This document shows positions 19,500-64,000 of a stretch of 64,000 bases of DNA, in pieces. Both the position numbers and the translations under genes were made by a program. Origin of the DNA: Pontederia crassipes (Eukaryota; Streptophyta; Magnoliopsida; Commelinales; Pontederiaceae); NCBI GenBank assembly GCA_030549335.1, contig CM060198.1:49565353-49629352 (forward strand). The letters run 5' to 3'. The notes below the pieces were generated by a model. The model was not told the DNA's origin, ran no database searches, and was given only the letters and a program-made list of their open reading frames with translations. Position 1 is the first letter of the stretch. Each line of letters opens with the position of its first letter.

Positions 19500-20085
19500 A
19501 AAAGCCATTGGTCGTGACTTCCAAACCCTCGATTCCACTGTCCTCCTCCTCCTCAGTCGTCGGCGGCATTTCCATAAACCCTCGTTGCCGGTGGCCACCT
19601 TTTACGCTCCGCTCTGTTCATCTAATGAGGACCTATTTACTATAAGGTCGTCCGCCGGCGGTATCCGGCGGGACGGTCCCCCGCTCTCGCATATGGCCGG
19701 GAGTCGCCTTGTCCTCTCCGATACGAGACGTCGTTGTTTATGGTAGCGTGGATTGGTTCTTAGTTCGCCGTTGGGAATTAGCTGTTTGGTGGTAATGATT
19801 ACCCGAATACATGATGGAAATAGTGCTGGCCTTGTTTTTTACGTAGAAATCGGCAGCATCCGCAAGTGGTTTCTGACCTTTTGTAATGTCCAGTGCCGCA
19901 AAGCTGTTCACTGTGTTTATCCTATGCAACAGTTGTATTGTCTGACATATGTGAATCTGACTATTCCTTTTTTAGGCTTCGTCGTTTGAATTTAGTCGTA
20001 GGCACACAATTGACTCTGTCCTCTTTTGCTTTCATGCAGAAGCTTGCAACACCTGAAGTTTGACGAAGCTGACCCGGAAATGCAT
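19500..20085 (+). pseudogene. 5' part of an unrecognised host gene (candidate first exon and exon 2)
   Basis: A GC-rich stretch (19500-19740) with CCTCCTCCTCAGTCGTCG and AAACCCTCG phrases looks like plant 5' leader/first-exon sequence. A short candidate exon follows at 20040-20085 (acceptor ATGCAG, donor GTATGT), one frame of which reads LQHLKFDEADPEMH. The second copy of this exon (from about 47506) differs by a 4-base gap, so at least one copy is broken. From 19990 on the sequence is shared with 47456 onward. Product unknown. Confidence 0.35.
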
Positions 20086-20444
20086 GTATGTTCAAGTGAT
20101 CACATATGTTTCTGAGACTGTTTCCTGACTTTATTTTAATCTGCCAGTCACTGCTAGACTGTGAAATTTAGTGTACTTTGTGTTAAGAAGGAATTAGTAT
20201 AGACTTTCTATTCCTTCTGATATTTTCGGCCCAACAGCATAAGTTTACAATATATTTTAACATGACATTTATAGTTTGTATCTTTCGATATAAAGAAATC
20301 GTTGGTGATTGTGAAGTAAGCTGTAACCTCGGAATCTTGTACTCTGGATCTATTTTTTGCTGTAACTCAGATAATAAATTTTGTTTCTCTGGTGAAAGTG
20401 TTATGAGCATCCTCCAACATATGCGTTCAGCCTATTCTGCATAA

Positions 20445-20940
20445 GGGTCTAATTGGGAAACAACTAATGGAGGGATGTGATGAGGTGATGTGGTGAGTGA
20501 TAGGGTGGGATGGCGTGGTGTGTCATTAGAAAGTTCATGTTTGGATAATAAATTATATAAGATGTGAGGTAGGATAATGAAGATTTTATTTGTATAAAAG
20601 TCATTTATATCCTTCATTATATATTTAAAGTATTTATAATTATTAATTAGGGATGAGCATGAATCGGGACGACTGGTCGCCTTCGTCCGCACCGGTTCGA
20701 ATTTTTCAAATTTTTTTCCGATCCGATGGATAATTGAGTCAGGACCGAGTCTCATTTCTTTGACACTCGACCATGTCGGGTCGGGACCGACGTCTTGACC
20801 CGATTGAATATATTATATTAATATTAAATTATTTTTAAATAGTATATTTATGTTTATTTTGAAAAAATTTTTATATTTACTAAAAAGTTTTATTTAATAA
20901 AAATTATAGATAAATATGTATTCATATTAGAAAAAAAGAT

Positions 20941-20972
<32 letters not shown>

Positions 20973-21234
20973 GGGGGGGATGGTTTAATTTGGTAATAAG
21001 AGAAATAATTTAATTTGGTAATAAAAAAGGAAAAGAGGTTAATTTGGTCTAAAATAATCTATCCCTCCTCGTTCCACCAATTTGGTGGAATGAAAAATGT
21101 GATGGTTGAAGGGCTTAGCTATTCCACCCCACCCCTCTTAACATAAATAAAAAATGTAACCAAATATAGTGTAACTAATTTCATTCCCTCATATTTCACC
21201 CCACCCCTTCATAACTCTCAATCCAAACAGACCC
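20445..21234. mobile_element. PIF/Harbinger (Tourist-like) element, 790 bp
   Basis: Left end GGGTCTAATTGGGAAAC; the right end is the inverse of GGGTCTGTTTGGATTG. It is flanked by TAA on both sides (20442-20444, 21235-21237), the family's target duplication. The other copy of the duplication has the uninterrupted GCATAAAATAAAAG at 47912-47925. Internally it carries a hAT-like stretch near 20647-20815 (GGGATGAGCATGAATCGG), a (TA)n run (20941-20963) and ATTCCACCCCACCCC phrases near the right end that mirror the left. No transposase. Confidence 0.85.
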
Positions 21235-22562
21235 TAAAATAAAAGTTTGGTGATGACTTTTTTAAAGAGACGTTTTAAATTATAGGCATTATTGCTACTA
21301 TTGGTTTACTTAATTTTGATTAAATTTAGGTTCATCGAAGAGGTAAGAATTCTTGATTAAAACTGGATTCGGATAAGCATTTAAGTTTCCAAGGTTTATT
21401 CATTGAATAATTTTGAGTTAAAAGGATGACTAGTAAGGTGGTAGCTCACTACAAGAAAAATGTCTGTTTCCCATGATTGTAATCGTGGGAAAATATAGGA
21501 AAATCGTTTAACATCTCTGACAATTTTCCCGACGGAAGGCAATCAAAACTGCTCTTTGCAAATTTTTTTGACGGTTCCAGTAGCCGTTGGAAGTTCCCGC
21601 GGCGAGAATCGTGGAAAAATATTCTCATGGTTGAAGCTGTGAAAAGGTTCCCACGGCTTCGGCCGGGGGCAAAGGTTCCTACGGTTGAAGCCGTGGCAAA
21701 TATTTCCCACGATTCTAGCCGTAAGAAAGTCTTTCTACGGCTTCAGCCGCGGGAAGGTTCCGACGGTTTGGACCGCACGAAGTCCTTTTCTTCCCACAAC
21801 TTTAACCGTCGCAAAGTTTATTTTTTTTAAAAAAATCCACCTGCGGTCATCATCCCCCGCAGCGAAAGATCCGACCAACCGATGCTGGATTGGCCGCCCG
21901 ATCCACATCTGCCCACTCGACGCCCGGTCGGCCGAACGCTGCCGGATCGGGCGCGAGCGGCCAGATCTAGCCCCCGCAACCGAATCGAGAGTAATGGCCA
22001 GACCGCGCCGCCCGCAACTGGATCGATCGTAGGGCTGCGAGATCCAGCTGCGGAAGGACAGATGTCGCCGTCGGACTAGACGCACCGATCGATGCACTGG
22101 TCGTGATGGCCGACGCGCTATCGATGATGAGAGGGAAAGGGAGAGGGTGAGTGGGAGAGGGAGCCCGCCGGAGAAGGCGCTGCCGCCGGACCACTTCGTC
22201 GAAGATCGAAGAGGAATGGAGATCAAAACGGCGTGGATGGAGATCAAAGAGGAACGACAGACTTAATTTAATGAATCGACGCGCATCCATCCGCCCGGTG
22301 GGAAACCCGGGCGGGAAATGAAAATAAAATTTCCCACGGCTAGAGCCATTGGAAAAGTTCCTTCGGCTCCAGTCGTGGGAATGCTTCTTGCGGCTTTGGC
22401 CACCGAAACTTCCCACTGCTCGCGCATTGGGAAACTTTCTATTTCATTAAAAAAAGATATGAACATGAAAATAGATATCAGATGAAAAAAAAGAAATCAT
22501 CGCAGCGTGCATTAGTTTTCAATCCCACTAAAAGAAGGTACAAATTAGAATATCATTCAAAT

Positions 22563-24022
22563 CATACTTAAAGTCAACAACTAATTGTCTTCTTCATCTT
22601 CATCGTCATCGTCATCGTCATCGTCTTGATGTCGGCCACGCATCACCTCATGAATCAATCTCTTCATCTCTTTTCGTTATCGCGCTTCAAAAACTTTTCA
22701 AATCCTTGAAGGACTTCTTCGTGAACCTTTTGTTGGACTTCCATTAATCGTTGATCCCACATCTCATTAAATAGTCATCGCGCTTCTTCACCGGGAACAC
22801 CGGATATTGATTTTCGTCCATATCCAATATCCGTACTACTAACAGACGACCCGAGACTGTAATCCGGCCGGCCCCTATTCACTCCAACATGGTCCGTTTA
22901 TAATTGTTGACAAGTCATTGGTGTTGCGACTCCTGTGTGACCTGTGAAAGATGCTCGACTTCTTTTGCTTCGAAGGACTCCGGTCTCCTGTAAGGTGATA
23001 GAGTGACATTATGATATTTAGAAATAACAAAAGTTACATTACGAAATTGACTAACTTACATATGTCTCCCGAGCACGCGATAAAACCATTTCGAGTTCTT
23101 CTTTTTTTATGAGTTTTTAAAAAAATCTCATCTTCGGTGGATGTTTTACCCATCTCCTTCTCCTACATTTGAAATCAAAGTTAGTACATGCCAAATTTTA
23201 ATTCTAAAAGTTAGCACAAAGAAAATTAAGTACCAGTGACGTCAAAACACAACCACCCACATGTAGGCATGCTCCCTGGTCCGACTTGCATTTCGTTTTC
23301 GCTTTTTTACACTTAGATTTATATGCCTCAGTGGACCAGTTAGCTATTAACTCGCTCCAAATTGCCTCGCCAAATCCAATTGGGCCGCTCTCCTACCACT
23401 CGTGCGTCCGACAACATCGAAGACAAACGCCTCGAGCACCAAGATTTGAACGCCTTCCACATCTGCTCCATGTTCTCGCATACATCAGCCTACAAATAAA
23501 AAGGATTCTTAAAGAAAAATGCAGCTGGTAGAAAATTGTTGAAAAAATCAGGCCACAAGGGTTCACTCGAGGCTGCTAGTAACTTGAAAATATCAGTGGC
23601 TTCGGAATGTGGTGAATCGCCCTCCCAATCTTGTTGAAATCTGATGTCGCCATAATTGATTGTGATAGCATCATAAATCAAATTTTGATATATAGAAATA
23701 TAATCATCTTCGATATTAGTGAAAACCTCTTGTGCAATATCCGAGTTCGATGACGGATCTATCTCACCAAGATCAGTCCAAACCAAAAATTGAGTTTCAA
23801 ACATTTTCTATATAAATGAACTTTGACAGTCTCCAAAGTTTGCAGCTTTGTGCTTTGACATTTTAAACAAGGACATCTTATAGTTCCTTCTCGTTGAAAC
23901 TATCTAGTTTGACAAGCTATTGTCGTGTATGATTCAATGCCATCTATGAATTCTTGTGTCAACCTTATACGGCCAGCATTTGTTCTATTGTACATCCATT
24001 GACGATGTTTCAGATGAGGCAT
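22563..24022 (-). pseudogene. CACTA transposase remnants (transposase-associated domain, tnp2 start, TNP1-like tail)
   Basis: Reading leftward: an ATG at 24022 opens MPHLKHRQWMYNR and, after about 45 codons, GTIRCPCLKC, the transposase-associated domain of plant CACTA tnp2 proteins, with one in-frame stop. A second open part (23804-23490) has the tnp2-type phrase HSEATDIFKLLAASSEPLWP. After a gap, sequence near 22980-22800 (SGRLLVV, LDMDENQYPVFP) and an acidic tail (DDDDDDDDEDEEDN ending at about 22583) resemble the second CACTA protein. The catalytic core of tnp2 is missing, so the element cannot encode its own transposase. Confidence 0.7.
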
Positions 24023-24035
24023 TTTGTAGTAGTTC

Positions 24036-24614
24036 TGTCACGACTCCGAATTAAACGGTGATTTAAATCAGAGTTCGCGACTAATTACAGACGATCAAAT
24101 ATTATATATTTTTTTTTTGAAAAAAAATTGTGCATAACTCCTCTAAATAATACAAGAAAATGATAACACATATAAGCAAACTACACAATTTATATTGATC
24201 ATTCAGAGCATGTAACAACCTTAGGATTTACACCACCACATAGTCATAAAAGATTCACATTTTATAAAATACAAAATTACTTTTCATATATAGCACATAT
24301 CAAACTCTCTCCATATCCCAACAAAGGAATATGAGAGCTGCAAGTTTTCTATCTAACACGCGTGGTGGGGCACATGACTTCTCAATACCTTAGCAGCAAA
24401 AAGGATCCACACCCTGCTAAGGCTGTCTCTCGCGCTCCCAAAAGTTCTACTGATCTGAAAAATTGTACAATAATACTGTGAGCAAATAATAGCTCAGTAA
24501 GCTAATAACTCATAAACTATATGTTACCATCTAATAAATTCGAGGAGACATAAACATACATGCATTAATCATAATATCAAAGTCAATATCTTCATACATT
24601 TACTAAATATATAT

Positions 24615-24649
<35 letters not shown>

Positions 24650-27086
24650 ACATCCCAATCAAAAGCATTGCACTCAATTTACATTCATTGTCACTTAAAC
24701 ATATCAAACATGTGTATGCAATGCAACACTCTCATATGTATACACGGATCACCAACTGGTCAGTGGTCGATAGGTGAATTCTAGAGGTGGCTCCCATCAT
24801 GATCGGCGATGTAGCACTTAGCTCTATTCTACCTCATCCCCTTTGGTGAACAAATCATAAAACGATAGGTGGATTCTAGAGGTGGCCCCTACGGATTCTA
24901 GAGGTGGCCCCCATCGCGACTACTTACGATGTGACACTTAGCTCTGTATGACACTTAGCTCTAGCCTATCTCATCTCATTACTGGGGAACAAAATGATGG
25001 ATTGGACTCTAGAGGTGGCTCCCATCGTGATCAGCGACGTAGCACTTAGCTCCAACCATCATATATGCAAATGCAAATAGATGTCGATGCATGATTCATT
25101 ACATAACAAATATCTCCTGACTATCAGAAGATGAATCATATCCAACACCATTTCAAAATGAACAAGATTGCACTCATCGCAATCCATTCAGATCATATCA
25201 CATGTACTTTCCATAATTATATTTCTCGAAATCAATTCATAGCATTATAAAACATATTCAATATATATAATAATCGATGTCACACCGAATTCAAAAGAGG
25301 TGAAAACATAGAGTAGGAGAAATCAACTTACCTATAAGGGCTAGCAAAATATTTTTTTTTCCTTGTTCACTACTTTATTCTTCTACTCCTATAACAATAA
25401 TAGTAAGAAACACATTACTATTATGATCTGAACATAATCCTATCACACATGAAACATAATTAATTGCTTAGGTATATGAACCTTAAGTATTTACTCTTAT
25501 AACTTAAGTAACTAATAAACATAAGGATTGACCTAATAATATAATAGATTGCACACATAGTGAAGAAAAATCCATATCTTCTTATATACATACCAAAATG
25601 ACATCATTCTAATTTTCTTTACTCTCATATTACAAAGACATTATTCTGTAAAAGTTTCATTTCCTACTTCATTATGGTTTGTTCTCATGAGAATCAACAT
25701 TCACCCTAACTTTTATGTTGCTTCTATGTCCTGACAGACTGAGTAACCTTACTTTTATGATTTATATAAAATAATAAACCTTTCCTGTTCTGATTCTTTC
25801 AATTTTCTCAAATAGTAGACATCCTAAGGTGAAACACATAAGATTACTTGAATTTATATCTATTTTTACTGAACACAATAAATTTAACCAATACTAGCAT
25901 AATCTGCCCTAAATTCCCTCCTGACAGACTGAGTAAGGCTCGGTAAATTATTTATAACTTTCGCTACACATATCATTTTCTAGTGATTCCAGTTGTCAAT
26001 GAACCCTAACATCAATGTATATGACACCCTAAAATATCAAATAATTCCACGACATATGCATTTTAATACATAATTTACAAATTCGGGTAGCAATTTAGGC
26101 AGACAGAGTGATAGTACCTTAAAGATACGAGCATAACTTTGTCTACAGAAATCATATTAACTTGATTCCAAAGCTCAATGAAAGTAGACTCATAGGGGAT
26201 CAATCAGAATACATTTCATAATTTTTGGATCATTTGAAGGTATGAAATTATATAGCTAACGATTCGTGAATCAATTGAACATGGCTAGGGTTAATCTTAC
26301 CCATGAACAATATGAGTTTTGCCCCATGTTCAAGTAAAATCCGAAAATGAATAGGTGAGACAGGTTCAGAGAAACCCTAATTAGGAACCATGTAGTTAAA
26401 ATCCAAAAGAAATTAATAGAAACTTATCAAAATCTAAAACCCTAGTTGCCCCTTCTCTTCCTCCAATTCCTTCAATCATGTAGTATAATTTGTTCTACCT
26501 TTGCAATTCGGCCAAGGGTAGTGAATAGGGCAGATGAAGGTAGTAAAATGTAAAAAGATAAGTATTAAAAGTGAAGGAGATACCGACTTTAGCTTGTACA
26601 TATAGTTCTTCCCAAAATGACCTTGAAGTAAATGGCTTTTGCATTTCTCCATTTATTTATTCATTTACTTAAGACATTATATGTAAATAAGAAACTACCC
26701 CCATTTGGATTCAAATAAAATATTTAGAAAAATAAATAACTAAGGAATCGAAATTTAAATTTTTGTCTAAAGAAAAAAATCGCGATTTCACAGATTTTTC
26801 GATTTTGTGTCTACGTTTTACCTAGCTCATACACCTCCTAAAAATTCTTAAAAATCACTTTTAAAATACTTTCATATATAGGAACAATTATCGGGATTTT
26901 AATTTTCTAAATTTTCACTTTTCCGAAAATCACATTTTCATGTCTTAAGTAAATTTCCATCACTTTCGCACATTAGTTGATATTAAAGTGTAAGTCTTAA
27001 CATCACATTCATAGAGATTATCAATAAGATAATATAACATCACATTCATACAACTAATCATGCATGATTAACTTAGGGATATTACA
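24036..27086. mobile_element. probable solo LTR (LTR retrotransposon fossil), ~3.05 kb
   Basis: Bounded by TGTCACGACTCC on the left and GGGATATTACA on the right, an imperfect inverted TG..CA pair. The 5-base flanks are AGTTC and AGTTT, a near-match. No retroviral-type coding is recognised inside. It holds a minisatellite (about 24760-25060) built on TTCTAGAGGTGGC(C/T)CC and CACTTAGCTC phrases. It lies 13 bases from the start codon of the CACTA transposase remnant. The end mismatches suggest an old insertion. Confidence 0.6.
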
Positions 27087-28124
27087 AGTTTTATGTGAAA
27101 TAAAAATTATTAAATTAAGATGACTAAAAATGATCAATTAAAATAAGATGAAATCATCATTATGAGCAACAATATGAGCTCGGATGATCTTAAGATGACC
27201 TGTCGGTTCTCCCGGCCGGTTCCGAGATGTCAATGGTCGGATCTAGTCATGCCGATGAAAAAGGCTCGGAACCAGACGTCAACGGCCAGAATCCGACCGT
27301 TCACGTCTAGAGCCGGGCGGGAACAGCCCAGATCTGGATGACAACGGCCCGAATCCGGCTGTGCATGGGGGACGTCGGACAGAGAGAAGGCCGCCGGAGG
27401 CCTGCGATCACGGTTCGAAATGGGATCACTGGACTGGGCAGTGGTGGCGGCAATGGCAAGGTGTCCTTCTTCGCAGCGTGAGCGCCGGCGTGCAGGGAGA
27501 TGGCCGGAGAGTGTGGGAAGATGGCCGAGCGTGCGCCGGAGAGGAGGTGAGCACCGGAGAGGAAGTCATATGAGTCGGAAGAGGGCAGAAGTGGCGAAGA
27601 AGTCATCGGGGAAGAAGGGCCGGCTTATATATGAGGGTGGAGGTGCGACGGACATTCTGACGGCTTCATCCATCGGAATATTTTAATTTTTTTGTCCGTT
27701 AACATTAAATATATTTTCCTTTTCCCACGGCTATGGCTCCATCCATGGGAAATCCCGAATTACATCTTTATAATCTCCCTTAAAAATTTTTTAATCGAAT
27801 CCGTCTATAAAAAAACTATTATTTTTTAGTTTCCCACGGTTGCAATTGTGGGAAACGGTGTAATTATTTTCCCATGGTTCTAGCCGCGGGAAGTTCCCAC
27901 GGCTGCAGCTGTGGGAAAAGTATGTGCCTGAACTTGTAGCAGATTTGCGACCGTCGCAAATTCCTGTCTGAAAAATAGAATTTTCTTGTAGTGGCTTTAG
28001 GCTTTTGGGGACATGTTACATCTGGAAAAGAATTATGTGAGCAAAATTATATCTCATTTGCCTTATATTGTAGGATTTTACAACACCATTTTCAATGTTC
28101 GTTGCATTATTTTTGCATTAATAG

Positions 28125-28203
28125 GTCTCACAATGCTACATCAGAAAGATTTGAGAAAAAGGTTTTGCGTATGTCCAACATGATACTTGCAATCGGGAGC
28201 ATG
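28125..28203 (+). pseudogene. candidate internal exon of the unrecognised host gene (copy 1)
   Basis: After an AATAG acceptor the frame reads SHNATSERFEKKVLRMSN, continuing to a Met-Ile-Leu-Ala-Ile-Gly-Ser-Met stretch. The matching copy 2 sequence (48255 onward) has one A less in an A-run, shifting the frame, and is split by a solo LTR. Product unknown; exon limits are guesses from splice-like signals. Confidence 0.3.
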
Positions 28204-28245
28204 ATTTTTCACGAAACATTGCAACATGTGTAAGTTCATTTATAC

Positions 28246-29640
28246 CGAGCGATATCGGGAGTTGGTATAGCCACGGCGGGGAGTCCGACAGGACTACCCT
28301 TGGCCTAATATTGTTTGTTCTAGTCGTTGATGCCCCCCAGATGTACTCAGGCCTCTTGCGAGGCAGGTAGGCCGTTCACCGAGTCCGGTCGACCCGACCA
28401 TGACCCGATCTGACCCAACTCGATAGGCCCATTTTTTTCTTTTTTTAAAAAATTAAATAATTTTTTAAAGTTAATTAAACCATTTTATATCATTTAAAAT
28501 TTTAAAAAAGATAAAATAAACTATCTTAAATGTAGAAAAATATATAGATATTTAAAATAATATTTTTTATTTAAAAATACTTTATTTTGTATAAAAAATG
28601 TAATAATAAATGCTTTTTTATATTAAAAATAAAATAAAATTAAAAAAAGAAATGGTGGTCTAGTAACCCGACCTGACCCAGCCCGAGTCGAGTTGGGTCG
28701 AGTCAGCGAAAAATTAAAGTTTGATCGGGTCGGGTCGAATTTGTTCACGGATCGGGTCAAACCCGCCCTGTGAACACCCCTGGAGGCAGGCTTCTTTAGT
28801 GGTTTTGTCATGAGTCTTGTCCTACTCCTTCAGTATGCAAACGATACAATGTTCTTCATTGAAGGTTCAAAGCAGGAGGCTCGTTGAGTTGCGATTCTTT
28901 TGGACCATTTTAGTGCGATGACCAAACTCCAGATTAACTATGCCAAATCCTCCTTCATCTTTTTTGGCATGGCTTCGGAGAAGGTAGGTCGTTGTGCATC
29001 CCAGCTCCATACCCCGACCAGCACCCTTCCGACCACCGTCCTAGGGCTCCCACTAACAGATCTCCACATTACCTCTAGAGGATGGACCCTAGTCATCAAG
29101 CATATGAAGCACACATTTCATGGCTAGAGTTCACGACTTTTGACATGCGAGGGCTGACTCATTCTACTATGGTCGGTGCCCTCGGCACTCCCGACATGCT
29201 ATATATCAGTCCTGCCACTATCGGATCAGGTACTCATACGGTTAGACTCACTCAGGAATAGCTTCTTTTGACAGGGCCGTAGCCCCGAGCATAGGGGAGT
29301 ACATTTGGTCGATTGGACCAGCATATGCCGACCTACCTCTCAGGGAGGCTTGAGGGTATGAGATCTTTGGCATGCCAACTGGGCTCTCCTAGCCCAGTGG
29401 TTTAGGTGGATCATGGGTTTGGAGCACAGTGTTTGACACCTGCTACGGTCGAGATCTGTTGTGAGACTCTAGGACCATTTTTACCCCGCGGGGCCTCATT
29501 CTTTTGGTGGGGAGTAGCAGCTGTGGCTCCACGAGTCTGCACCCTTATGATTTTGTCCCTCGGCTCAAGGGAGGACTTCTTTTTTTGACAGCACCCTTGG
29601 TCCGTTGGAGGCTCATTAGTGGAGACATTCCTCTGCCTTT
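28246..29640 (+). mobile_element. L1-type LINE remnant (reverse transcriptase C-terminal half)
   Basis: Degraded frames give LILFVLVVDAPQ (equivalent to the 'PLSPLLFVLVMD' part of LINE reverse transcriptase) and, at 28900-29127, a frame with LQINYAKSSFIFFGM and TVLGLPLTDL, both standard LINE reverse transcriptase phrases. Several stops. It is interrupted by a hAT MITE at 28368-28782. The 5' part is absent. Confidence 0.7.
28368..28782. mobile_element. hAT-type MITE, 415 bp
   Basis: Exact 8-bp target duplication GAGGCAGG at 28360-28367 and 28783-28790. Ends TAGGCCGTTCAC and the inverse of CAGGGGTGTTCAC, a typical hAT terminal sequence. The interior is AT-rich between GGGTCGGGTCG-like inverted arms. 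It splits the LINE reverse transcriptase reading. Confidence 0.88.
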
Positions 29641-30506
29641 GTGACACAGGAGCTTTTATTTTAATTAAAACTAGTGTTTTAGTTTATTAGTCATCATGTG
29701 AAAGGCATGTGACTTTTTAATTAGTTTATAAGGGTCATGATTGATTATAACAATCTTGATTAAAAGTAGGTTAATCAAAGGTGAAGATTGATTAGTAGTT
29801 TATAATCTCTTGTAATCCTACTATTTAAGGCTGTCAATAGAGTTATCAGCCGCATTATCTCTCTTTTATCAAAATTACATATTTTTGTGATTTTCTCTTA
29901 AATCCTAATTGTTCCTCTATCAATATTTCTCATCTTCTAGCAAAAGGGTTCTGGTGCTGTTTGAAATACAAAAAATAGCACATCAAGGAACCAATCAAGG
30001 TACTCATGCAAATAAAAGTGATGATAAAGAAAAAGCTGCAATGGTTTATGGTGAGCAAAATAATTCTGCACCCATGACTTTTGAAGGAAACAACAATGCA
30101 CAAACTCATTGTTCACATATGGTGAAAAAGGTCATGGTTCTTATGCTTGTTCATAATGAAAAGTCAACCTAGTGGAGCCGCAAGATGAAGAATATGAAGA
30201 GTCAGAGCAATTTATGATCAATATGTGGATGAAAGTGAAAAAATAGATGTCCTTCCTGTTCAAGGAGAATCACTAGTGGGATGAAGAAGATTAGAGAAGG
30301 CATAGTATCTTCAGAACGCGTGTTCTTTGTGGTGGGAAGGTGTGTGATCTAGTTATAAAAGATGGTAGTATAGAAAATGTCATTTGTAAAGATGTAGCAG
30401 AGAAGGTAGGATTAGTTATTGAAAAAACATCCACATCCTTACAAAATTCGTTGGCTTAAGAAAGGCAATAAAATTCCTGTCACTACTTGATGTTTAGTGC
30501 GATTTA
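29641..30506 (+). mobile_element. Ty3/gypsy fossil fragment (LTR-like and gag/protease region)
   Basis: 29690-29940 resembles LTR sequence (TACTATTTAAGGCTG promoter-like phrase). 29940-30500 carries fragments of a gypsy gag-to-protease region, ending in a phrase close to the usual protease-downstream stretch of plant gypsy elements. Broken at several points; old. Another LTR element starts at 30507 within it. Confidence 0.55.
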
Positions 30507-42464: not shown

Positions 42465-42479
42465 GCTTTAATATGTGGG

Positions 42480-44830: not shown

Positions 44831-45010
44831 GTCGAAATGGATAGTTGTATTTCCAATATGTTAGGATTTGTTGCTTTTCTTCTACATAGACATGATTTGC
44901 TGCTTATGTATTTCCAACTTGTCGAAATGGATAGTTGTATTTCCAAGATGTTAGGATTTGTTGCTTTTCTTCTACATAGACATGATCTGCTGCTCATGTA
45001 TAGTAGTTTC
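44831..45010. repeat. 90-bp tandem repeat inside the MULE
   Basis: Two units (44831-44920 and 44921-45010) starting GTCGAAATGGATAGTTG; a few differences. Confidence 0.9.
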
Positions 45011-50395: not shown

Positions 50396-50400
50396 TGTTA

Positions 50401-51932: not shown

Positions 51933-51990
51933 TCTCTCTCTTTCCCCCCTCCCTTCCTCCCTCTCTCTCTCTCTATATATATATATATAC
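51933..51990. repeat. CT/TA-rich simple repeat
   Basis: Compound run of CT, CCCT and TA units, expanded relative to copy 1. Confidence 0.85.
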
Positions 51991-52169
51991 ACACTCTTGA
52001 TGGTGTTGTTTATTTCAATTTTCTGTTGTTACTATGACAAATTAATCTTTTATTGATGATTCTGAAAGCGAGAAACAAAGTAAGTAATTCAGTATTTCCA
52101 AAAGATGATAAGGGGCTCAAGATTTTTTTAGGAAAAGATATTATCTATTAAAGTAAGAACCACAAGGGT

Positions 52170-52567
52170 CTTGGTACAATATTTGAAGGATGCCCAAAAG
52201 GGGGACTCACTCTCAAAAGGTATCATTAACTATTGAGCGACCTTTAGCCACTTAGCAACATGATTTACTTGTCGATAATGGTGCCTTACATTCCATTGTT
52301 CAAAGAAAAGATAGTAGATGAGTAATATCTTTGATGTACTATTGAACTCTCCATAGTCTTTTTGAGGATGAGTTCTGCCAAGACAGTTGAATCGGTTTTT
52401 ACAAGCACAAGGGTGAATTCTAAATATTTGCAATTCTTTAAGCCACCAAGTAATCCAGTCTCCAAGGTGGATCCGGCATCACGTCTCAAAGCACATACAA
52501 TCATCAATTGATCTAATGATAAAGCTTGCACCCCTGCCTCCATGGCCGGCTCCCATTTGACCAATAG
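52170..52567 (-). mobile_element. LINE RNase H remnant, copy 2 (left part)
   Basis: Minus-strand frame 52564-52286 has VKWEPAMEAGVQALSLDQ and FTLVLVKTDSTVLAELIL, the RNase H-like tail of the LINE also seen at 42480-42830. It ends where the gypsy element begins; the rest of the LINE resumes at 63154. Confidence 0.65.
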
Positions 52568-53395
52568 GTATGCAGATAAGAAGTTTCTAATATCTCCTGA
52601 TTATGTCATGTGTTCTGTTCAACAAATTCCATAGCTTTTTGGACAGCAGTGTAGTGGTCCCCCCACCTTTCCAGCTTGTGCAGTCCTGTAGTACCTGTTA
52701 AAAGAGTCAAAACAGCAAGCATCAAAGTCCTTAAATAAAAATTAAACAAGTATGGATTAAGACAACATATATATCAACTATATTATTAAGTAGGGATGAT
52801 CTTATAGAGGAATGATAACCTTATGCCCCCAGAACGATAGCTTTGTGCAAATTAATGATAACTTGTGAAAATTTGATTATGATTATCCAAATGTGATCAA
52901 TTCAGAACAGCAAGGAGTTAGGACAATAATTAAACAATTGCCTAATAACCTTACACATCGAAATGATAATTTTGCCCCCAAAAATGATAACTTGACACCA
53001 AGAACGATAACTTCTGTATTTGAGTGATAACTTTGCACAAATCAAATCATGACCATGCAAATATGATTAATTCATAATAGTAATGGATTTAGGGCAAGAT
53101 AACAACTAGAAATCAGCTCAATTAGCAAATACACATTGGAATCATAACTTTACATCTTGAAATGATAACTTGCCCAAAAAATGATAACTTGGTACATAAA
53201 TGATAACCTTACAGATTTTAACCATTCAGAACCTCTGTGCACATGAAATTGAATAAAAATGAGGATGGTCAACTAGCAATCACAATTTATTGCATTCTAT
53301 GCATAATTGACCAAATGTAAGGCAAAACGAGGGCTCGATAGATGTGAAATGGATAGAAAATAGAGTAAAACTATAATATGATCAACTAGTGATCA

Positions 53396-55163
53396 AACTC
53401 CCCAAAGCTTAGCCTTTTGCTTGTCCTAACATTCAGATATTGATAATAAAACTTGAATAAAATAGTTCACAAGTGAAATTAAATCCAGTTGATTAAAGTC
53501 CAATGAGTTTCCCACTTTGCCAACACTCCATTCTTTCCAAAATTCAGTTTCTAGCTAAGGAATCACAAAAGCTAAAGCAAATTTAAGCCATAAAAAAAGT
53601 ACTAATAGTTATTGAATTGGATCTCAGGAATTGTCAACTTTACTAAAAATGTTGAATTATAAATCTCCTCATGAACATATTTTTGCACTACTTAAATAGG
53701 TTTGGAAACCTGACTTTTATTCATAGAAATGCAAGTAAACAGGTTGAGACTTGATTTTTATTCATGTTGGTCACAGGATAAAAATCCTAACTTTATTCAG
53801 GAGAGGTTCCTTTTCGAAATTTCACTCTCTTTATTGATGCATGCATGCAATGTAGAAATGCAACTTTGTTCTTTTTCTTTTTCTGTTCTATTTATGAAGT
53901 GAGCAATAGTTCAAACTCAAGTAAAGTTTAGATCCCTTAGAGCAAATACTCAAGTTTTCCTATTTAACATGGCAGCAAGAGCCTTGACTCCCTTCTAGAC
54001 ATTTTCTACTTTCAAATCAATTTATGAGTGCTAGCTAGTGTTACCCACAAAAAGGAAAATTTTCAACTGAAATTCAAATTCAAATGCATCTCAAAGGGTA
54101 ATCTGATTGAAGCAAAAAGACTAGTAGCCAACTTGACTACTTGGTATTGGAGTGTACTAACTATTATATTAAAGGATTTCACCCATTTTGTACTTAAAAT
54201 GAAGGCAATAACTCCGTTGAGCAATATCAGTGATAACTTGTGATAACTTGTTGAAATTACTGATAATTGGGTGAAAACAGTGATAACTTGCTGATAACAA
54301 TGATAACCTGGTAATAATTAATGATATTAGCTTTGAAATGAATTAGAAACATGGTGTAAAGTTAAAAAATGCACCAGGTTCCTCCGCCAAGCTTATTTCC
54401 AGCATTGCCCTCAGTGGTGAAAAATATAGCCAAGGGAGAGGGTATTAAATTTTTGAAATTGTGCATTGGGTATTGCTTCATGTGATTCCTTCATGTGAAC
54501 TAGAGGCTTGTGTGCAATCAATTCTACAAAGAATTGGAGAATAATCAGCAAAGTATTGAGTGTCATATCAGAAAACAACAATGATAAGTTATGCAATGCA
54601 CAATGTAACAATGCACTGAATTGCACTGAAATTTAGCAATGGTAGATGTGGATGACTGATATGAGTGATAATTCAGATATCATTATGATAATTATAGCAT
54701 GCACTAGAAGATAATATCAGTTATCAGTGACATTTCAGTGAGAAAAGTCAAGTTTGAGTCTAAGAGTACTCCCTAGGTGAAAATTCATGGGTGGATCTGA
54801 TTCCTCTATGATTTATTCCTGCAAAACAGAAAAAAATATGTATGAAATTGCTTGGGTTGCCTCCCAAGAAGCGTCATACTTTAGTGTCTTAGGCTAGACA
54901 TTACTTCACTAGAGTTCAACTAGGCAATTGTGGTGGATCTTGCAATATCAACACTTCCTTAGTTGAATCCATTGCTGTGGGGTTGTATAACTTCAATCTT
55001 TGTCCATTAATCTTGATATATCAGCATTATCATTGACAAGGTCCACAGCTCCAAAAGGGTATACTTTGTGGACTTTGAAGGGTCCATTCCATCTGGATTT
55101 CAGTTTTCCAAGAAATAATTTGAGCCTTGAGTTGTAAAGCAATACAAGGTCTCCAACTTGGAA
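53396..55163 (-). mobile_element. 3' non-coding internal region of the gypsy fossil
   Basis: Lies between the integrase region and the partial LTR. It has a further cluster of TGATAACTTG motifs near 54230-54310. The short open frames here have no recognisable domains. Confidence 0.6.
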
Positions 55164-56080
55164 TTACTTCTTCAAGATCCTACTATCATGCCACCTCTTT
55201 ATCCTTTCCTTGTAGAATTCAAAATAATGGTAGGCATTAAGTCTAATCTCATCCAATTGCAGAAGTCTTTTCTGTCCACAAGCATTTAGGTCATAATTCA
55301 AAACTTTGACTACCCAATATGCCTTGTGTTTCAACTCAATTGGCAAGTGACAATTTTTGCCATAGACTAACTTGTAAGGAGAGACACTAATTGGAGATTT
55401 ATAGGCTGTTCTATAGGTCCAAAGTGCATCATTTAACTTCATGCTCAAATCTTTTCTTGTCAATTAAACAGTCTTCTCTAAAATGACCTTTATTTCCCTG
55501 TTTGAAATCTCAGCTTGGTCATTTGTCTATGGGTGGTAGGCTGTTGAAACTTTGTGCTTTACCTCATATTTGCGCAAAAGATTTTCAAAACTTCTTTCTA
55601 AGAAGTGACTGCCTCCATCACTGATAACTACCCTTGGAACTCCAAATCTTGAGAAAATTATATCCTTGAACATTCTAATAACAGCCTTGGAGTCAGCAAC
55701 TATCGTGGGGATTGCCTCTATCCATTTGGACACATAATCAACAGCCAACAATATGAATTTATATTCAAATAAAGTAGGAAAGGGGCCCATGTAGTCAATG
55801 CCCCAAACATAAAAAATCTCAACTTCTAAAATTACATTCTGTGGCATTTCATTCCTTTTAGAAATTGACCCTACTCTTTGGCACACATCACAATCTTGAC
55901 ATACATATGAGCATCCTTGAATAGACTAGGCCAATAGAAACTTGATTGGAGGACTTTAGATGCTATTTTCTGAGTAGCCCCATGCCCTCCATAAGGTGAA
56001 GAATGGCATTCATGCAAAATATCCTGAAATTCAGTCTCAGGCACACACCTTCTAATGCCATCAGGAGATTTCTTGAACAA
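55164..56080 (-). pseudogene. gypsy fossil: integrase region
   Basis: Contains the zinc-binding head and the core of a retroviral-type integrase, with phrases typical of plant gypsy elements ([28 protein letters not shown]) and the downstream YRTAYKSPI and SPYKLVYGK phrases. Broken. Confidence 0.85.
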
Positions 56081-56307
56081 GAATGGATCATCCCAATAAT
56101 AGTCTTTTATGTCATGGAAGAATTTCTTTTTCTAATGGTAGGAATAATCAGATGAAATGATTCCACAGGCTAGGAAATTCACAATGTCAGCATACCATAG
56201 AGTTGGGGCAGCTGATATGGCCATTAAGAAGTCATCATGGAATGAATTATTGATAAGAATTGTTGGGAATTCCTAAATTCCTTCCATCCTGGACAAATGG
56301 CCAGCCG

Positions 56308-58397
56308 CTAGTTTTCAATGCCTCTTTTATCCTTAAACTCCACATCAAATTTTTGTAACAATAGAATCCACCTGATAAGCCTTGGCTTTGACTCCTTCTT
56401 GCTGATTAGATGCCTAACAGCTTGATGGTCAGTATATACAATCACTTTGGCTCCAACTAGATAAGGCCTGAACTTGTCAAATGCAAATACCACAGCCAAA
56501 AATTCTTTTCCAGTGGTGACATAATTGATTTGGGCTTCATCTAGAGTTTTGCTACCATAACAGATAACATAATGTTTCTTATCCTTGGTTTGTCCTAGCA
56601 CTGCCCCTATTGCCTAGTCAGATGCATCACACACAATTTCAAAGGGCAATGACCAATCTGGTAGTTGCACAACTGGAGTTGTATGAGGGCATCCTTCAAC
56701 TGATTAAAGGCCTTCAGACAATCCTCATCAAAATTGAACTTAGCATCCTTTGTCAATAGCTTTATGAGGGGCCTAATTATCATTGAGAATTTTTTGATAA
56801 ATCTCCTATAAAATCTAGCATGGCCTAGAAAACTCCTCACTACCTTCACATTCTTTGGAGGTGACAGCTTCTCAATGGCCTCAATCTTCGCTTTGTCCAT
56901 CTCAATCCCTCTACTGAATACAATGTGGCCTAGTACAACTTCTTAAAGCATGAAGTGGCATTTTTCCCAATTCAGAAGTAAGTTGGATTCCCTGCACCTT
57001 TGCAACACTTTTGTTAAATTCTCCAAGCATGCTTCAAAAGAATCCCCATAAACTAAAAAATCATCCATAAATATTTACATAATGTTTTCAATTAAATCTG
57101 ATAAGATAGACATCACACACCTCTGAAATGTGGCAGGAGCATTGCACAATCCAAATGACATCCTTCTATATGCAAATGTCCCATATAGACAAGTAAAGGT
57201 GATCTTGTCCTAGTCTTGGGGATGCAAAAAGCTTGAATAATCATCCAAATAGCAAAAGTGAGAATGTTTGGCCAACCTCTCAAGCATTTGATCAATGAAA
57301 GGAAGTGGAAAGTGATCCTTTCTGGTTGCCTTATTCAATTTCCTGAAATCTGTGCACATCCTCCAACCAGTGATTGTTCTAGTAGAAATCAACTCATCTG
57401 AATCTGATTTAACCACTGTAATTCCTCCTTTCTTAGGCACCACTTGAATAGGACTGACCCACTCACTATCTGAAATGGAATATATAATTTCAGTATTCAG
57501 GAGTTTGAGCACCTCCTTCTTTACAACCTCCTTCATAACAGGATTCAATCTCCTTTGGCATTCAAAAGGTTTGTAATTGTCCTCCATGGGAATCTTGTGC
57601 ATGCAAATTGAAGGATTAATACCCTTGATATCTTCAATTGAGTAGCCAATCACTTTCCTATACAATTTCAATCTCTTCAAAAGCTCCTGAACTTGCTCTT
57701 TAGGCAAATTGGCATTGATGATTACGGGGAATATGGAATTCTCTCCTAAGAATTCATACTTCAGATTGCTAGGGAGAGGTTTCAACTCCAATTTAGAAGA
57801 GTTATCTTGAGTTGAATTAGTTTGGAGTTCAGTAGTGAAAACTTCCTGCACCACATTCTGAATTTCAGATTGATCCACTGATTTGAATGAATTCATCATG
57901 AATTGACATGCCTTAGCCTCTGAATCTTCTAGTTCCTTCAAATGATCAAACATAAGGCATCTTTGCAAGGAGTCTTCAATGGGAATTATTGCAGAAACTT
58001 GCTCCACAATCTGATTTAATTGTCCATCTTCAAAATCTTCATGTTGGAAGTTTGGGCTACTGATTACTTGAGCCAGATTAAATTCTATATTGTCCTCTCC
58101 AATTTAAAATATCAATCTACCTTCCTTAATATCTATAACAGCATCTACAATGGCTAGAAAAAGCCTTCCTAGCAGAATTGGAGTGTTTAGGTCCTCATCC
58201 ATGTCAAGCACCACAAAATCCACAGGAATGTAGAATATTTCAACTTTCAGGGGTATGTCTTCAAGAATTCCATGTGGATACTTGATGGATCTATTAGCTA
58301 GCTGCAAGGACATGTTTGTGGACTTCATATCTTCAACTTCTAGCTTCCTGCATAGTGACAAAAGGATTACACTCACAGATGCACCCAAGTCACACAT
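56308..58397 (-). pseudogene. gypsy fossil: protease, reverse transcriptase and RNase H region
   Basis: In order on the minus strand: an aspartic protease-like segment (58397-58104), reverse transcriptase (about 58007-56607, with ACTDFRKLNKATRKDHFPLP-like and YLDD phrases) and RNase H (56601-56308, with [13 protein letters not shown]). This order, with integrase last, defines Ty3/gypsy. Broken. Confidence 0.88.
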
Positions 58398-58636
58398 TGC
58401 CCTCTGAATTTTTCTATTTCCAATTTCTCAAAGAATTGAAAAGCTCCCTGCATCCTTTAATTTGGGAGGCAACGTTTTTTGAATTATGGCAGAGGCCTCC
58501 TCAGTCAGGGCTATGATTTCATGCTACATGATTCTTCTCTTCTTGGTTAAAATCTCCTTAAGGAACTTTGCATATGAGGGAATTTCCTGAGTTGCCTCCA
58601 TAAATGATACATTGATATATAACTTCTTCATAATTT

Positions 58637-60190
58637 TCAAAAATCTCTCATATTATTGATCTTGCCTAGCCTTGACCAACCTTTGTGGGAATGACACTTT
58701 ATAAAAAATTCTAGCTTGGTTTTATTTTGAAGGTTCTGATTTCTGTTTTCCACCACAATTTCTTTAGCTGATTCTTCTACAGGCCTTGAATCTGTTTTAG
58801 TTGAATTGTCATCAACTTTCTTCATTGGTTCTTCAACAATCCTTCCACTCCTGAGCTGGACAGCTTGGACTTGTTCCTTGGGATTGACTTCTGGTTGTCC
58901 TGGGAAAAACATTGATGGCCTAGCTGAGGTGCTGACTTATTGGGCAATTTGGCTCTCAAGTGTCTTTTGATGAGCACTCAAAGTCTCATATCCAGAAGTC
59001 AATTTCTGCATTGCCTCTTCCTGCTTTTCTTGCTTCTTCAAAATTGTTTGCAGCAACTCCTCCATTTTTGACAATTGAGAGGCTTGAACTTGTGGTGGCT
59101 GATATGGAGGTCTTTGCATTTGAACATTTGGAGGTGGTTGATTCCTTGGCAAATTTTTTTGCTGCCAATTAGAATTCTGCATAGGTGGGGTTTGGTAATG
59201 ATTGGCTTTGTATGACAAATAAGGATGATTCCTATTTTCAGGTGTGTAGTATTCAGCAGGGGGCTTCATTTCATAATTGACCACAGCATTCACTTGGTCA
59301 ATGTATTGTTCATATTGTTGCATAATCATATTACAACTCTCAGTAACATGACCTTAATTTCCACACACATCACATCTGATTTCTGAATTGGAAACCTTGT
59401 TGACATTGGTTGACAAATTCAACTTTTCTAAGGCTTTTTGCAAGACTTCTTCAATCTAGACAGAAAGATTATTCACTAAATTCTCTACTGGTGGTCTCCT
59501 TGTACTGTCATGAGTAAAGAAGTGGTGGTTCTTGGCAATGTTCTCAATCAATTGATATGCTTCATCAATGTTTTTAGAAGCAAAAATTCCTCCTGCAGCA
59601 GTGTCTAATGCAACCTTGCTAGGGTAGTTCAGTCCCTTATGAAAATAGCTGACCAATTGCCATTTTTCAAATCCATGGTGTGGACATGCCCTCAATAGAC
59701 TTTGGAGTCTTTGTCATGCATCACAAATATTTTCCTGATCCAATTGATAAAATTTGACAATTTGGTCAATATAGTTATCAGTTTTACTAGGTGGAAAGAA
59801 TTCAGATAAGAACAACTGCACTATGGACTCCCAAGTTGCCACTTCTTCTGGTGTGAGAGCCTTGTACCAAATTTTAGCCCTATCCTTGAGTGAAAATAAA
59901 AACAACCTCATGTAGACAGCATTCATGGGGGTATTGTTGAAGTGGACTGTGCTATAGATTTTCTTGAAATTGTCAACCTCAGTCCCCAATCTAGCAAATT
60001 GGTATTGCCTTATCATTGTGACTAATGCTGGATTCACTTCAAAATTAGCAGCAGGTGCTATGGCTCTATCCACAGATTGTCCTCTGACATTGTTGGGTGA
60101 ATAACAATCATTAAGTGTCCTGGGAGCAGCCATGTTTTGATTGATAACCTCTTCTTCAAAAATTCTTCTTATTGCTTCTTCCCTTTGCAC
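58637..60190 (-). pseudogene. gypsy fossil: gag region
   Basis: Retrotransposon gag-type sequence (60190-59456, with FSLKDRAKIWYKAL and LFLSEFFPPSKT phrases), then a Gln/Pro-rich linker with a heptad-like stretch (59329-58937) and a Lys/Glu-rich part leading to protease. Broken. Confidence 0.85.
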
Positions 60191-60456
60191 TCTCCTCCTT
60201 CTGTTAAATATCCTTTCAAGTTCTGGTTCATATAGTTATAAATCCTCTTGTTTATCCAAACCCTGTCTAAATTGAATTCAGAAGTATCAAATTTAGGAAA
60301 GAAAGAAAACTAGATAGAATTGAGAAATTTCAGACTGATAACGTGCAAAAACTGAAAATTGGGCTAATAAATGAAATGATAACTAGTCTAAAACTAATCT
60401 AAACTATCTAATTTAATCTAATTAGCCTCAAATTCCTGACAACGGCGCCAAAAACT

Positions 60457-62746
60457 TGATGTAGATTAAGTGAAGTAATGATAACTTGCTGAATTTATAG
60501 GTCAGAATTGAGATTTTTCAAAATTTGATCAAACTCCTTAACTCACTCTACTGCAAGTGCACAGGTCAATTGTAATAAACTTAAGTGTCATATCCACAGT
60601 GATCTGAAGGCCAATGACTCGCTAAAATAATCTAGACTAACCCTAGAGTAAGTGACAAAAATAGTGAAATTAAAGAAAGTGAAAATAGATTTAAAATATG
60701 ACTAAAAAGGGTAACTATTTTTTGTGTTTTAATAATTGATATGGACTGAAATCTAGATGCTAAGCTAAGGACTAAAAGGGATTATCAATTAATGAAATAT
60801 TCTCCAAAGAATGGGATTCATCTAATTCAAGTATGGATGGAAGGGAACAATTCAACAATTTAGAGTCAAATCTGATTCAACTAATAAAGGGCTGCTCTCA
60901 CAGCATGACTAAACCAAGACTAATCATCATATTCTCATATAGAAGATTAGTTAAGTTGAATGAGAAAAGAATTTCCACTGATATGAGGTTGTCATTAAGC
61001 ATATGGATGAGTACCTCATTGATTTTTCCTAAATCTTTTCAGATTTTGACAATTTCAGTGGGTCTGAAATTAACACCGCAACTAGATTTACATTCATAAT
61101 AATGACACAGTGGATTAAACTATCTAGTCAGAGATATAATTGGTCCAATTCTGATGTCAATGCTTCTTGATTTATCTCTAAACATCAAGAGGATTTTAAA
61201 TCAGTCTCTTGATTGCATAATTAAATTGAAATCCACATTAACATCAATCAATTGGATGCAATAAGCATATAATCATAGGTTGGAATTCAATAATTGTCAT
61301 TGCTTCTTGGTCCATCTCTGAACATCAAGAGAACCACAAAATCAACCTCTCAGTTGTTAATGAAATCAGGGTTACAATGACAAAACAAATTTCTATAGAA
61401 ATCAGAAAATAGATATCAGAAACATATCAAAATCAGGAGAGAAAATCAGTAACAATCATAGATTGAAATCATAAAAGTATCATAGCATCTTGATTCATTT
61501 CTGAACAAGATTGGAACCATAAATCAACCTCTCGGTTGCTTATATAATTAGAGTTTCACAATGACAAACAGATTCCAATAAAAATCAGAATTTAGGAAAT
61601 CAGAACAATTCTAATATCAGAGAAGGAAGTTAGTGGTGTTCATACTCCATCCATAACCAAACTAGATTACTACCCTATCCTAGGAGAGCTGGAAATTAGC
61701 TCCTCATAATTACCTAGATTGTTACAAAATAGATAAGAAAACTGATACAAACATCCTGGAATCAGATTGGAAGAAGACTGTCGACATGATCAGATTGCAG
61801 CAGCTCTCCTCAGCTCTTTTCCTTTCCTTCTTGGTTAATCCCTACAATGGAGGCCTCCCCTCTCATATGGATTCCTCTCAGCTTTTATATGGTCCTTCTT
61901 CATCCTAGGATGCAGATAAGAAGCTTCTTCATCCTGTCCAATAAATTCCAGCTGATGCAACAGCCTTTTGGACAACAATGTAGTGGTCCCCCCCCACCTT
62001 TTCCAGCTTGTGCAGCCCTGTAGTACCTGCTAAAAGAGCCAAAACAGTAAGCATCAAAGTCCTTAAATAAAAATTAAATAAGTATGGATTAAGACAACAT
62101 ATATATCAACTATATTATTAAGTAGGGATGATCTTATAAAGGAGTGATAACCTTATGTCCCCAGAATGATAACTTTGTGCAAATTAATGATAACTTGTGA
62201 AAATTTGATTATGATTATCCAAATGTGATCAATTCAGAGCAGCAAGGAGTTAGGACAGCAATTAAACAATTGCCTAATGTTGTTATGCAAAAATGATAAC
62301 CTTACACATCGAAATGACAATTTTGCCTCAAAAAATGATAACTTGACACCAAAAATGATAACTTGTGTATTGGAGTGATAACTTTGCACAAATCAAATCA
62401 TGACCATGCAAATATGATTAATTCATAATAGCAAGGGATTTATGGCAAGATAACAGTTAGAAATCAGCTCAATTAGCAAATATACATTGGAATGATAACT
62501 TTGCATCTTGAAATGATAACTTGTCCAAAAAATGATAACTTGGCACAAAAATGATAACCTTACAGATTTTAACCATTCGGAACCTCTGTGCACATGGAAT
62601 TGAATAAAAATGAGGATGGTCAGCTAGCAATCACAATTTATTGCATTCTATGCATAATTGACCAAATGTAGAGCAAAATGAGAGCTCGATAGATGTGAAA
62701 TGGATAGAAAATGAAGTAAATATATAATATGATCAACTAGTGATCA
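60457..62746 (-). repeat. LTR of the gypsy fossil, 2.29 kb
   Basis: Bounded by TGAT..ATCA ends, with the primer-binding region on one side and a polypurine tract (AAGCTTGGGAGAGTT) on the other. It contains about a dozen ATGATAACTT-type motifs at 62140-62560, matched in the partial LTR (52820-53210). The open frame at 60833-61099 is not considered real. Confidence 0.8.
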
Positions 62747-63153
62747 AACTCTCCCAAGCTTAGTCTTTTGCTTGTACTCAAGCAAAACATTCAAATATTA
62801 AGAATAAAACTTGAATAAAATAGTTCACAAGTGAAATTAAATATAGCTGATTAAAATCTAATGAGTTTCCCACTTTGCCAACACCATTCTTTTCAAAACC
62901 CAATTCTAGCTAAGGAATCACAAATGCTAAAACAAATTTAAGCTATGAAAGAAGTACTAACAGTAACTGAATTGAATTTCAGGAATTGTCAACTTTACTA
63001 AAAAGGTTGAACTATAAATCTCTTCATGAACAGATTTTTGCACTACTTAAACAGGTTTAAAAACCTAACTTTTATTCATGAAAATGCAAGTAAACAAGTT
63101 GAGACCTGATTTTTATTCATTCACGGGATAAAAATCCTGACTTTATTCAGGAG

Positions 63154-64000
63154 AACAAGTACTAGAAGGCCAGGAGAACATAATCTTAAAATGAAACTTA
63201 AGTTTAAACCGAGCAAGGTTCCAAAGATGAGAGGCAATTTGACAGGTGAAGAATAAATGTCGATTTCAGCATATGGGTCACATAGCATTATTAATAGGAT
63301 GAAAATAAGGCATTGGAGCAAGGCCTTGTTCCCAACTCTTTTGCCAAAATCATATTTTTGCAACGATGGGCCCCACAACAATTATGATGAGGTTAAAGAT
63401 TTTGTGAGTTCGTGGTGTCATCGAGGAATTAAATGATATGTTGACTTGCCAAATAGGCCATAAGAGTACCAGCTTAGTTATGTAATAATTTCCATAGGAA
63501 AAGAGGATATTTTGGGGGGTAGGAATATGTCACATATAGGCTAAGAAGGCCATCCAGGTCCATGCAAAGGAAGGTCGTAGACAGACTTGGCAGAAGGTTT
63601 GCCGTGGGAATAATTTTCCAAATCCAATAATCATCATAGGCATTTATAGGCGAATATAAAGATTTGATACAAGTAATAATAGCATCTCAAAAACAGGTTG
63701 ATAGCATATCAATGTTTCAGGTATTATAAAAAATTAGGTCAAATACCAGAAGAGAAGGTAAAGGTGTAGAAATATTGATAAAGGTAGGTATCCATGCAAG
63801 AGGCACATTGAATAACCATGGATCATTGAACACATGAGTTGAGCTTCCATTGCCAATAAGTTCTCATTCCTAGCTTAGTCTCTTGCATGATTTAGAATTA
63901 ACTTCTAGCTCCAAACATTTCTGTTCAGGGAGACTTGTAACAATTTTCACCCAAGGATTATGATTTTAGTTTAGAACTTACATGACCCCACCTTGACATT
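63154..64000 (-). mobile_element. LINE remnant, copy 2 (zf-RVT/RT-end part), runs off the window
   Basis: Matches copy 1 at about 43113-44050, including the zf-RVT region (63381-63121 overlaps it on the minus strand). Relative to copy 1 it has an extra ~100 bases around 63280-63470 that restore part of the LINE reading, so copy 1 carries a deletion there. Confidence 0.65.

Follow-up and report, generated by a model that had tools for sequence, protein, structure and literature searches.

A tandemly duplicated ceramidase pseudogene segment in Pontederia crassipes, its single-copy counterpart on a second chromosome, and the relative age of the duplication

Introduction

When two copies of a segment lie head to tail and each has been invaded by transposable elements that the other lacks, can the order of events, and the age of the duplication itself, be read from the locus? 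This question is raised by a 64,000-nucleotide stretch of the 1.13-Gb genome of Pontederia crassipes (C16:49565353-49629352; contig CM060198.1 of assembly GCA_030549335.1), hereafter the window. An initial annotation of its letters proposed that positions 19990 to 64000 hold a tandem segmental duplication whose copies preserve each other's empty insertion sites, which would provide a relative clock. We report here that the tandem copies derive from a much smaller unit, consisting of a dead alkaline ceramidase coding part and part of an element resembling a long interspersed nuclear element (LINE), and that the duplication probably occurred before C16 separated from C15, a contig that carries the unit once.

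Results

Two abutting copies on C16 and a single copy on C15

Self-alignment of the window, the check proposed with the initial annotation, yielded a chain of nine pieces that are collinear and on the same strand, running over 19990-43797 in copy 1 and 47456-63986 in copy 2 (Table 1). This chain is not due to chance, as the E values are 1e-174 and 1e-159 for the two best pieces and 2e-7 for the weakest. The copies adjoin where they had been placed, at 47455/47456: copy-1 sequence is recognisable to 47446 and is followed by nine A/T nucleotides, after which copy 2 begins. ATTT is present beside both unit ends. Blastn of the 600-bp stretches around these ends detected no homology between them, which points to a junction made by an illegitimate join rather than by recombination between repeats.

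C15:9440001-9470000, read in reverse, is collinear with C16 from 8.6 kb in the window to 21.7 kb beyond the window end, and homology between the two contigs goes on further left, at a ZIP transporter gene. This region carries one undivided copy of the unit, of about 5.68 kb (C15:~9452864-9458544), with matching, collinear flanks on both sides. It is because of these flanks that we consider the C15 locus a homeolog and not a third insertion; a mobile unit with fixed ends, a candidate in view of the C15 match beginning at the same base, is ruled out by them as well. The length of the single copy indicates an ancestral unit of about 5.5 kb. The tandem arrangement of the initial annotation thus stands, whereas its duplicated unit of 27 kb does not, and copy 2 ends outside the window, at about 64436. 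With two abutting collinear copies in direct orientation, and a related locus holding the single unit, we regard the tandem duplication as practically certain.

The flanks of C15 and C16 diverge by 4.5-10% depending on the block (ten blocks), and three further locus pairs (C7/C8, C13/C14 and C5/C6) show 3.9-4.3% divergence across 7.6-9.6 kb of alignment. Given these three similar pairs of consecutive contigs, C15 and C16 look like a homeologous pair within a set. An assembly artefact, in which haplotypes or the homeolog were misplaced in tandem, is extremely improbable: the insertions are of very different ages, the window contains no N, and the copies differ by 10.2% (303 of 2972 ungapped columns), more than copy 2 differs from C15 (219, 7.4%). 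Haplotypes are unlikely to be the source of copies that differ about as much as, or more than, the two homeologous chromosomes.

A dead ceramidase gene and a LINE-like element in all three copies

The exons of the unit match the alkaline ceramidase family, two open frames of a relative on C8 matching PF05875; relatives were found on C5, C6, C7, C8, C13 and C14. When compared by eye with C8, C13 and C6, copy 1, copy 2 and C15 proved to carry the same four frame-breaking changes. Three affect the first exon (one base gained, one base lost and seven bases lost); the fourth, seen against C8 and C13, is a single base gained in the middle exon. All three copies also contain an antisense LINE-like element, which starts with poly-T in this orientation (by eye) and inside which the right end of the unit falls. 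Its matches to PF00078 (RVT_1; 8.1e-4, 19.6 bits for a curated cut-off of 29.6) and PF13456 (RVT_3; 2.7e-4, 21.3 bits for a cut-off of 21.6) are weak, both lying below the cut-off. As the lesions and the LINE are common to the three copies, gene death and LINE insertion are older than the duplication, in agreement with the order first proposed.

Within its LINE, C15 alone has an insertion of about 0.2 kb (about 2900-3110 of the C15 locus, L009), which neither C16 copy has. Similar sequence is present at 88065-88253 of the window plus flank, and short similar pieces lie near ceramidase relatives, which suggests that this insertion, presumably SINE-like (short interspersed nuclear element), belongs to a small repeat family.

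Relationships among the three copies and the age of the duplication

Was the unit duplicated before or after C15 and C16 separated? The divergence between copies 1 and 2 is uneven, from 4.1% in alignment blocks A-B to 14.9% in blocks G-J, and a single clean relative clock is therefore not supported. Over all columns copy 1 and C15 show 282 differences. In blocks C-E (n=415) the counts are 34 for copy 1-copy 2, 29 for copy 1-C15 and 32 for copy 2-C15, and in blocks G-J (n=1327) they are 198, 171 (12.9%) and 105 (7.9%) respectively. The last value is near that of the right flank of C15 and C16 (8.5% and 9.3%), copy 1 being the outlier. Private changes in G-J number 127 in copy 1, 61 in copy 2 and 34 in C15, and the shares of such changes are uneven across four block groups (chi-square 36.6, p 2e-6). 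The change-point that fits best falls where block I starts, with private changes of copy 1 and copy 2 in a ratio of 88:81 to the left and 88:32 to the right; 17 of 2000 shuffles were as good. Plain methylation-driven C-to-T decay was rejected as the cause of the right-end divergence of copy 1, whose 127 changes comprise 41 C>T/G>A, 43 T>C/A>G and 43 transversions.

In the right part, the LINE outgroup consisted of four relatives on C5, C6, C11 and C12, with pieces 63-73% identical. The maximum-likelihood tree of blocks G-J unites copy 2 with C15 with an ultrafast bootstrap (UFBoot) of 92, its log-likelihood being 6.8 better than that of the tree uniting copies 1 and 2; block I alone gives the same grouping (UFBoot 88). 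Deletions point the same way. Copy 2 and C15 both lack, with identical ends, a 25-bp stretch that copy 1 and two outgroups, C12 and C6, retain (in one of the two alignments C6 has 5 bp fewer). They also lack an 18-bp stretch that is retained in copy 1, in C11 and, less 4 bp, in C6. Two smaller indels, one of 2 bp in a T run and one of 1 bp, likewise join copy 2 with C15, and among the indels of blocks G-I that the outgroups polarise, none was seen by eye to place copy 1 with either of the other two. Such shared deletions are expected if the duplication predates the C15/C16 split and C15 was reduced to one copy afterwards. From these comparisons we think it probable that the duplication predates the split, and the single copy on C15 is probably a derived state.

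Several observations weigh against this conclusion. Shared derived sites favour the pairing of copy 2 with C15 over those of copy 1 with copy 2 and copy 1 with C15 whichever copy serves as alignment reference (24, 7 and 6 of 1286 sites with C15; 41, 4 and 6 of 1259 with copy 1; 23, 4 and 14 of 1307 with copy 2). When each class is expressed as a fraction of the differences that single out one copy, however, the classes are not distinct with C15 (24/96, 7/24 and 6/43) or copy 2 (23/98, 4/25 and 14/47) as reference; they are distinct with copy 1 (41/86, 4/24 and 6/42), a reference that leans towards copy 1. Because the shares are not distinct with the first two references, outgroup homoplasy can lie behind much of the 24 sites, and site counts alone were dropped as proof of the right-part grouping since the shares vary with the reference. 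The approximately unbiased (AU) test does not reject the pairing of copies 1 and 2 in G-J (p=0.089; copy 1 with C15, 0.069), and in block I alone the values are 0.133 and 0.031. Further left, blocks A-B (n=660) weakly favour that pairing, with 27 differences vs 36 for copy 1-C15 and 37 for copy 2-C15; their outgroup coverage is 47 sites, of which 0 are informative. Blocks C-F, with ceramidase outgroups, also pair copies 1 and 2 (UFBoot 85), the other two groupings not being rejected (AU p=0.119 and 0.181), and block F (n=570) is star-like, with 44, 46 and 45 differences. Rates are uneven even between copy 2 and C15 (61 vs 34 private changes, p=0.007). The indel support comes mainly from one clean case, that of 25 bp, the 18-bp deletion adjoining a further 6-bp gap of C15 alone with which one alignment merges it. 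Finally, the searches made brought up no trace of a second copy on C15.

A different reading is a duplication on C16 after, or near, the split, in which C15 would show the original single-copy state and copy 1 would have changed about twice as fast in its right part. Such a history needs the fewest events and no loss on C15, and it is in keeping with the weak pairing of copies 1 and 2 in blocks A-B and C-F and with the AU result for the right part. We nevertheless consider it unlikely: the 25-bp stretch, and probably the 18-bp one, are missing from copy 2 and C15 while copy 1 and the outgroups keep them; C15 has the fewest private changes in G-J, where even rates would want it to have the most; and the private changes of copy 1 there are not biased from C to T, so that plain methylation decay does not account for them.

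Alternatively, the copies may have been unlike from birth, an unequal exchange between diverged chromosomes (through ancestral polymorphism or in a hybrid) having joined an undeleted unit, copy 1, to a deleted one, copy 2, with C15 descending from the deleted type. This would explain why copy 2 and C15 lack the same stretches, and why C15 is single-copy, with no loss of a copy. It would, however, need sources 14.9% diverged in the right part, vs about 8% between homeologs, and the left of copy 1 is normal relative to C15 (5.8% in block A, 4.5% in the adjacent left flank). We judge it a rather remote prospect, more so than a duplication after the split.

Under a duplication older than the split, the following history would apply. 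A segment of about 5.5 kb, with the dead alkaline ceramidase coding part and part of the antisense LINE, would have been tandemly duplicated through an illegitimate, microhomology-type join at ends without shared homology, before C15 and C16 diverged. One copy would later have disappeared from C15, the simplest route being recombination within the tandem pair, while the left part on C16 would have been homogenised by conversion or be too little diverged to tell. The copies were enlarged to 27.5 and 17 kb by the insertions specific to each. The two halves of the unit would be reconciled if conversion had acted between the tandem copies on the left. A collapse breakpoint visible on C15 was looked for and rejected, as the left of the change-point is balanced and not copy-1-like, and for this reason the collapse is something we can only infer. 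The full version, in which the pair predates subgenome divergence, C15 is a recombinant from the collapse of the same pair and the surviving pair is partly homogenised, is put forward tentatively.

Insertions specific to each copy

The initial annotation listed four transposon insertions, at 20445-21234, 21447-27993 and 38771-40705 in copy 1 and 48311-50395 in copy 2. For each of the four, the other copy is uninterrupted at the site, and each is flanked by target-site duplications (TSDs), one of these with 1 of 5 bases changed; C15 too is empty at all four sites. The insertions postdate the duplication, as had been stated, and are thus borne out. Two of these listed transposons are solo long terminal repeats (LTRs). 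Four stretches were missing from that list: a Mutator-like element (MULE), a gypsy-type element, a compound insert and a copy-1-only stretch of about 1 kb (Table 1). The MULE and the gypsy-type element are absent from C15 too.

Table 1. Position of the duplicated unit, its components and the copy-specific insertions (window coordinates)
Feature	Position	Strand	Details
Copy 1	19990-47455	+	27.5 kb today; about 5.5 kb without later insertions
Copy 2	47456-64000, on past window end to about 64436	+	about 17 kb
Junction	47438-47464	+	unit end GGGGGAAATATAAA (to 47446), nine A/T (47447-47455), unit start ATTTAGTCG (from 47456)
Aligned piece, copy 1 / copy 2	19990-20444 / 47456-47917	same strand	92% including gaps
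Aligned piece	21235-21446 / 47915-48128	same strand	96%
Aligned piece	27988-28185 / 48120-48310	same strand	88%
Aligned piece	38565-38779 / 51045-51252	same strand	88%
Aligned piece	40707-40748 / 51243-51286	same strand	93%
Aligned piece	41870-42430 / 51283-51903	same strand	86%
Aligned piece	42482-42834 / 52180-52547	same strand	78%
Aligned piece	43105-43285 / 63147-63323	same strand	82%
Aligned piece	43282-43797 / 63462-63986	same strand	70%
Ceramidase pseudogene, first coding exon	copy 1 27994-28244; copy 2 about 48121-48310 plus 50396-50425	+	
Ceramidase pseudogene, last exon (approximate)	copy 1 41895-42110; copy 2 about 51310-51520	+	
Old LINE-like element, copy 1	42482-44105, resumes 47321-47446	- (antisense)	
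LINE-like element, copy 2	63147-64000, also 52180-52547	-	runs into right flank
790-bp element	20445-21234		copy 1 only; ends GGGTCT/AGACCC, TSD TAA; absent from copy 2 and C15
6.5-kb CACTA-type element	21447-27993		copy 1 only; ends CACTACAAGAAAA..TTTTCTTGTAGTG, TSD GCT; absent from copy 2 and C15
10.3-kb compound insert	about 28245-38578		copy 1 only; CACTA-type terminus TCTTGTAGTG at 38569-38578
LTR-like direct repeat pair in compound insert	30507-31046 / 36294-36903		
Solo LTR	38771-40705		copy 1 only; TSD GATGA/AATGA, 4/5 match
Copy-1-only stretch	40757-41774		copy 1 only, about 1 kb; in C15, 0.6 kb not aligning to it; in copy 2, deletion
MULE DNA transposon	44106-47320	-	copy 1 only; 227-bp terminal inverted repeats, 95%
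Solo LTR	48311-50395		copy 2 only; TSD TGTTA on both sides; TGATA in empty copy 1
Gypsy-type element	about 52565-63154	-	copy 2 only; LTR-like repeats 52565-53804 and 61906-63154

In copy 1, the 790-bp element has the inverted ends and TAA/TTA target duplication of PIF/Harbinger-like elements, to which we take it to belong on the strength of these ends and TSD. The 6.5-kb element has CACTA inverted ends and a 3-bp TSD, the one open reading frame (ORF) of it that was scanned (105 aa) giving no Pfam match. The compound insert replaces about 0.9 kb still present on C15 and has no CACTA terminus at its start; its stretch 28779-29641 belongs to a very common repeat, the query 28260-30500 having given 3539 first-look candidates, of which 40 were scored. 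The MULE combines its long inverted ends with a target duplication matching at 9 of 10 bp and a transposase fragment at 46530-46871 (PF10551, 6.4e-30).

Both solo LTRs show TG..CA ends, a 5-bp TSD and related pairs elsewhere. For the one in copy 1 (about 1.93 kb), end-to-end matches lie in same-strand pairs at two places on C15, with about 6.4 kb between the members of a pair; among the 40 of 4554 candidates scored, its identity to full-length relatives is at most 82%, and up to 87% for partial ones. That in copy 2 (40 of 4317 candidates scored) matches a full-length LTR pair on C12, on the same strand and 6.9 kb apart, at 98-99% identity and is recent in view of this closeness. The gypsy-type element contains gag, RNase H and integrase pieces, the integrase lying beyond the RNase H, the gypsy rather than copia domain order as read from the coordinates. 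Six ORF pieces were scanned (three matches above the curated cut-off, one weak match below it, two without match), none of which matched a reverse transcriptase. No clean 5-bp target duplication was found around this element, and about 0.26 kb of the target is missing alongside.

Kimura two-parameter distances are 0.079 for the gypsy LTR pair, 0.139 for the LTR-like pair of the compound insert and 0.051 for the MULE ends, and the insertions seem to span from about the age of the chromosome split to recent times. The LTR differences are rich in transitions (72 of 90 and 49 of 67), for which reason LTR dating as a strict clock was dropped and the divergences are used as ranks, not dates. The pair at 0.139 could have been carried in with the compound insert and hence gives no date for it.

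Neighbouring features

A second, much younger tandem duplication lies about 8 kb left of copy 1, at window 9210-11782: a stretch of about 1287 bp occurs twice in head-to-tail order, the two units differing by 3 substitutions and one gap, and overlapping sequence that is also on C15. Open neighbouring genes identified by Pfam encode a RING/DUF1117 zinc-ribbon protein (14096-15343, minus strand) and a piece of a ZIP zinc transporter (435-1178, plus strand), whose homeolog is on C15.

Discussion

An event of this class is ordinary in plant genomes, and a search of titles and abstract openings returned nothing concerning such a locus. What is newly added is the single-copy homeolog, the true size of the unit, the identities of the gene and of the elements, and evidence on the age of the duplication. 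The locus offers three aligned copies of DNA that is probably free of constraint, which allow many insertions, deletions and substitutions to be ordered relative to the duplication and to the chromosome split. It also cautions that a single-copy partner chromosome is not necessarily ancestral, and that the divergence of tandem copies is no clock where it varies more than threefold along 5.5 kb. If a pair older than the split did collapse on C15, this one locus would preserve, in relation to the subgenome split, a record of duplication, conversion, collapse and successive transposon insertions.

The two solo LTRs resemble those of plants in LTR length, 5-bp TSD, lack of an internal part and LTR pairs elsewhere, and we saw no difference from them. 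Tandem segmental duplication with differential loss between homeologs (fractionation) is a class known from polyploid plants. The C16 pair is like it in its direct, abutting copies, its junction without long homology, the later divergence and the single copy on one homeolog; it is unlike it in that the unit is non-functional, a dead gene with a LINE, and that its halves give different distances. Ordering transposon insertions against a duplication by empty sites and target duplications is likewise a known method. Here too each insertion is ordered by its empty partner and its target duplication; the difference is that a third, homeologous copy, empty at the four sites first listed, helps to polarise the changes.

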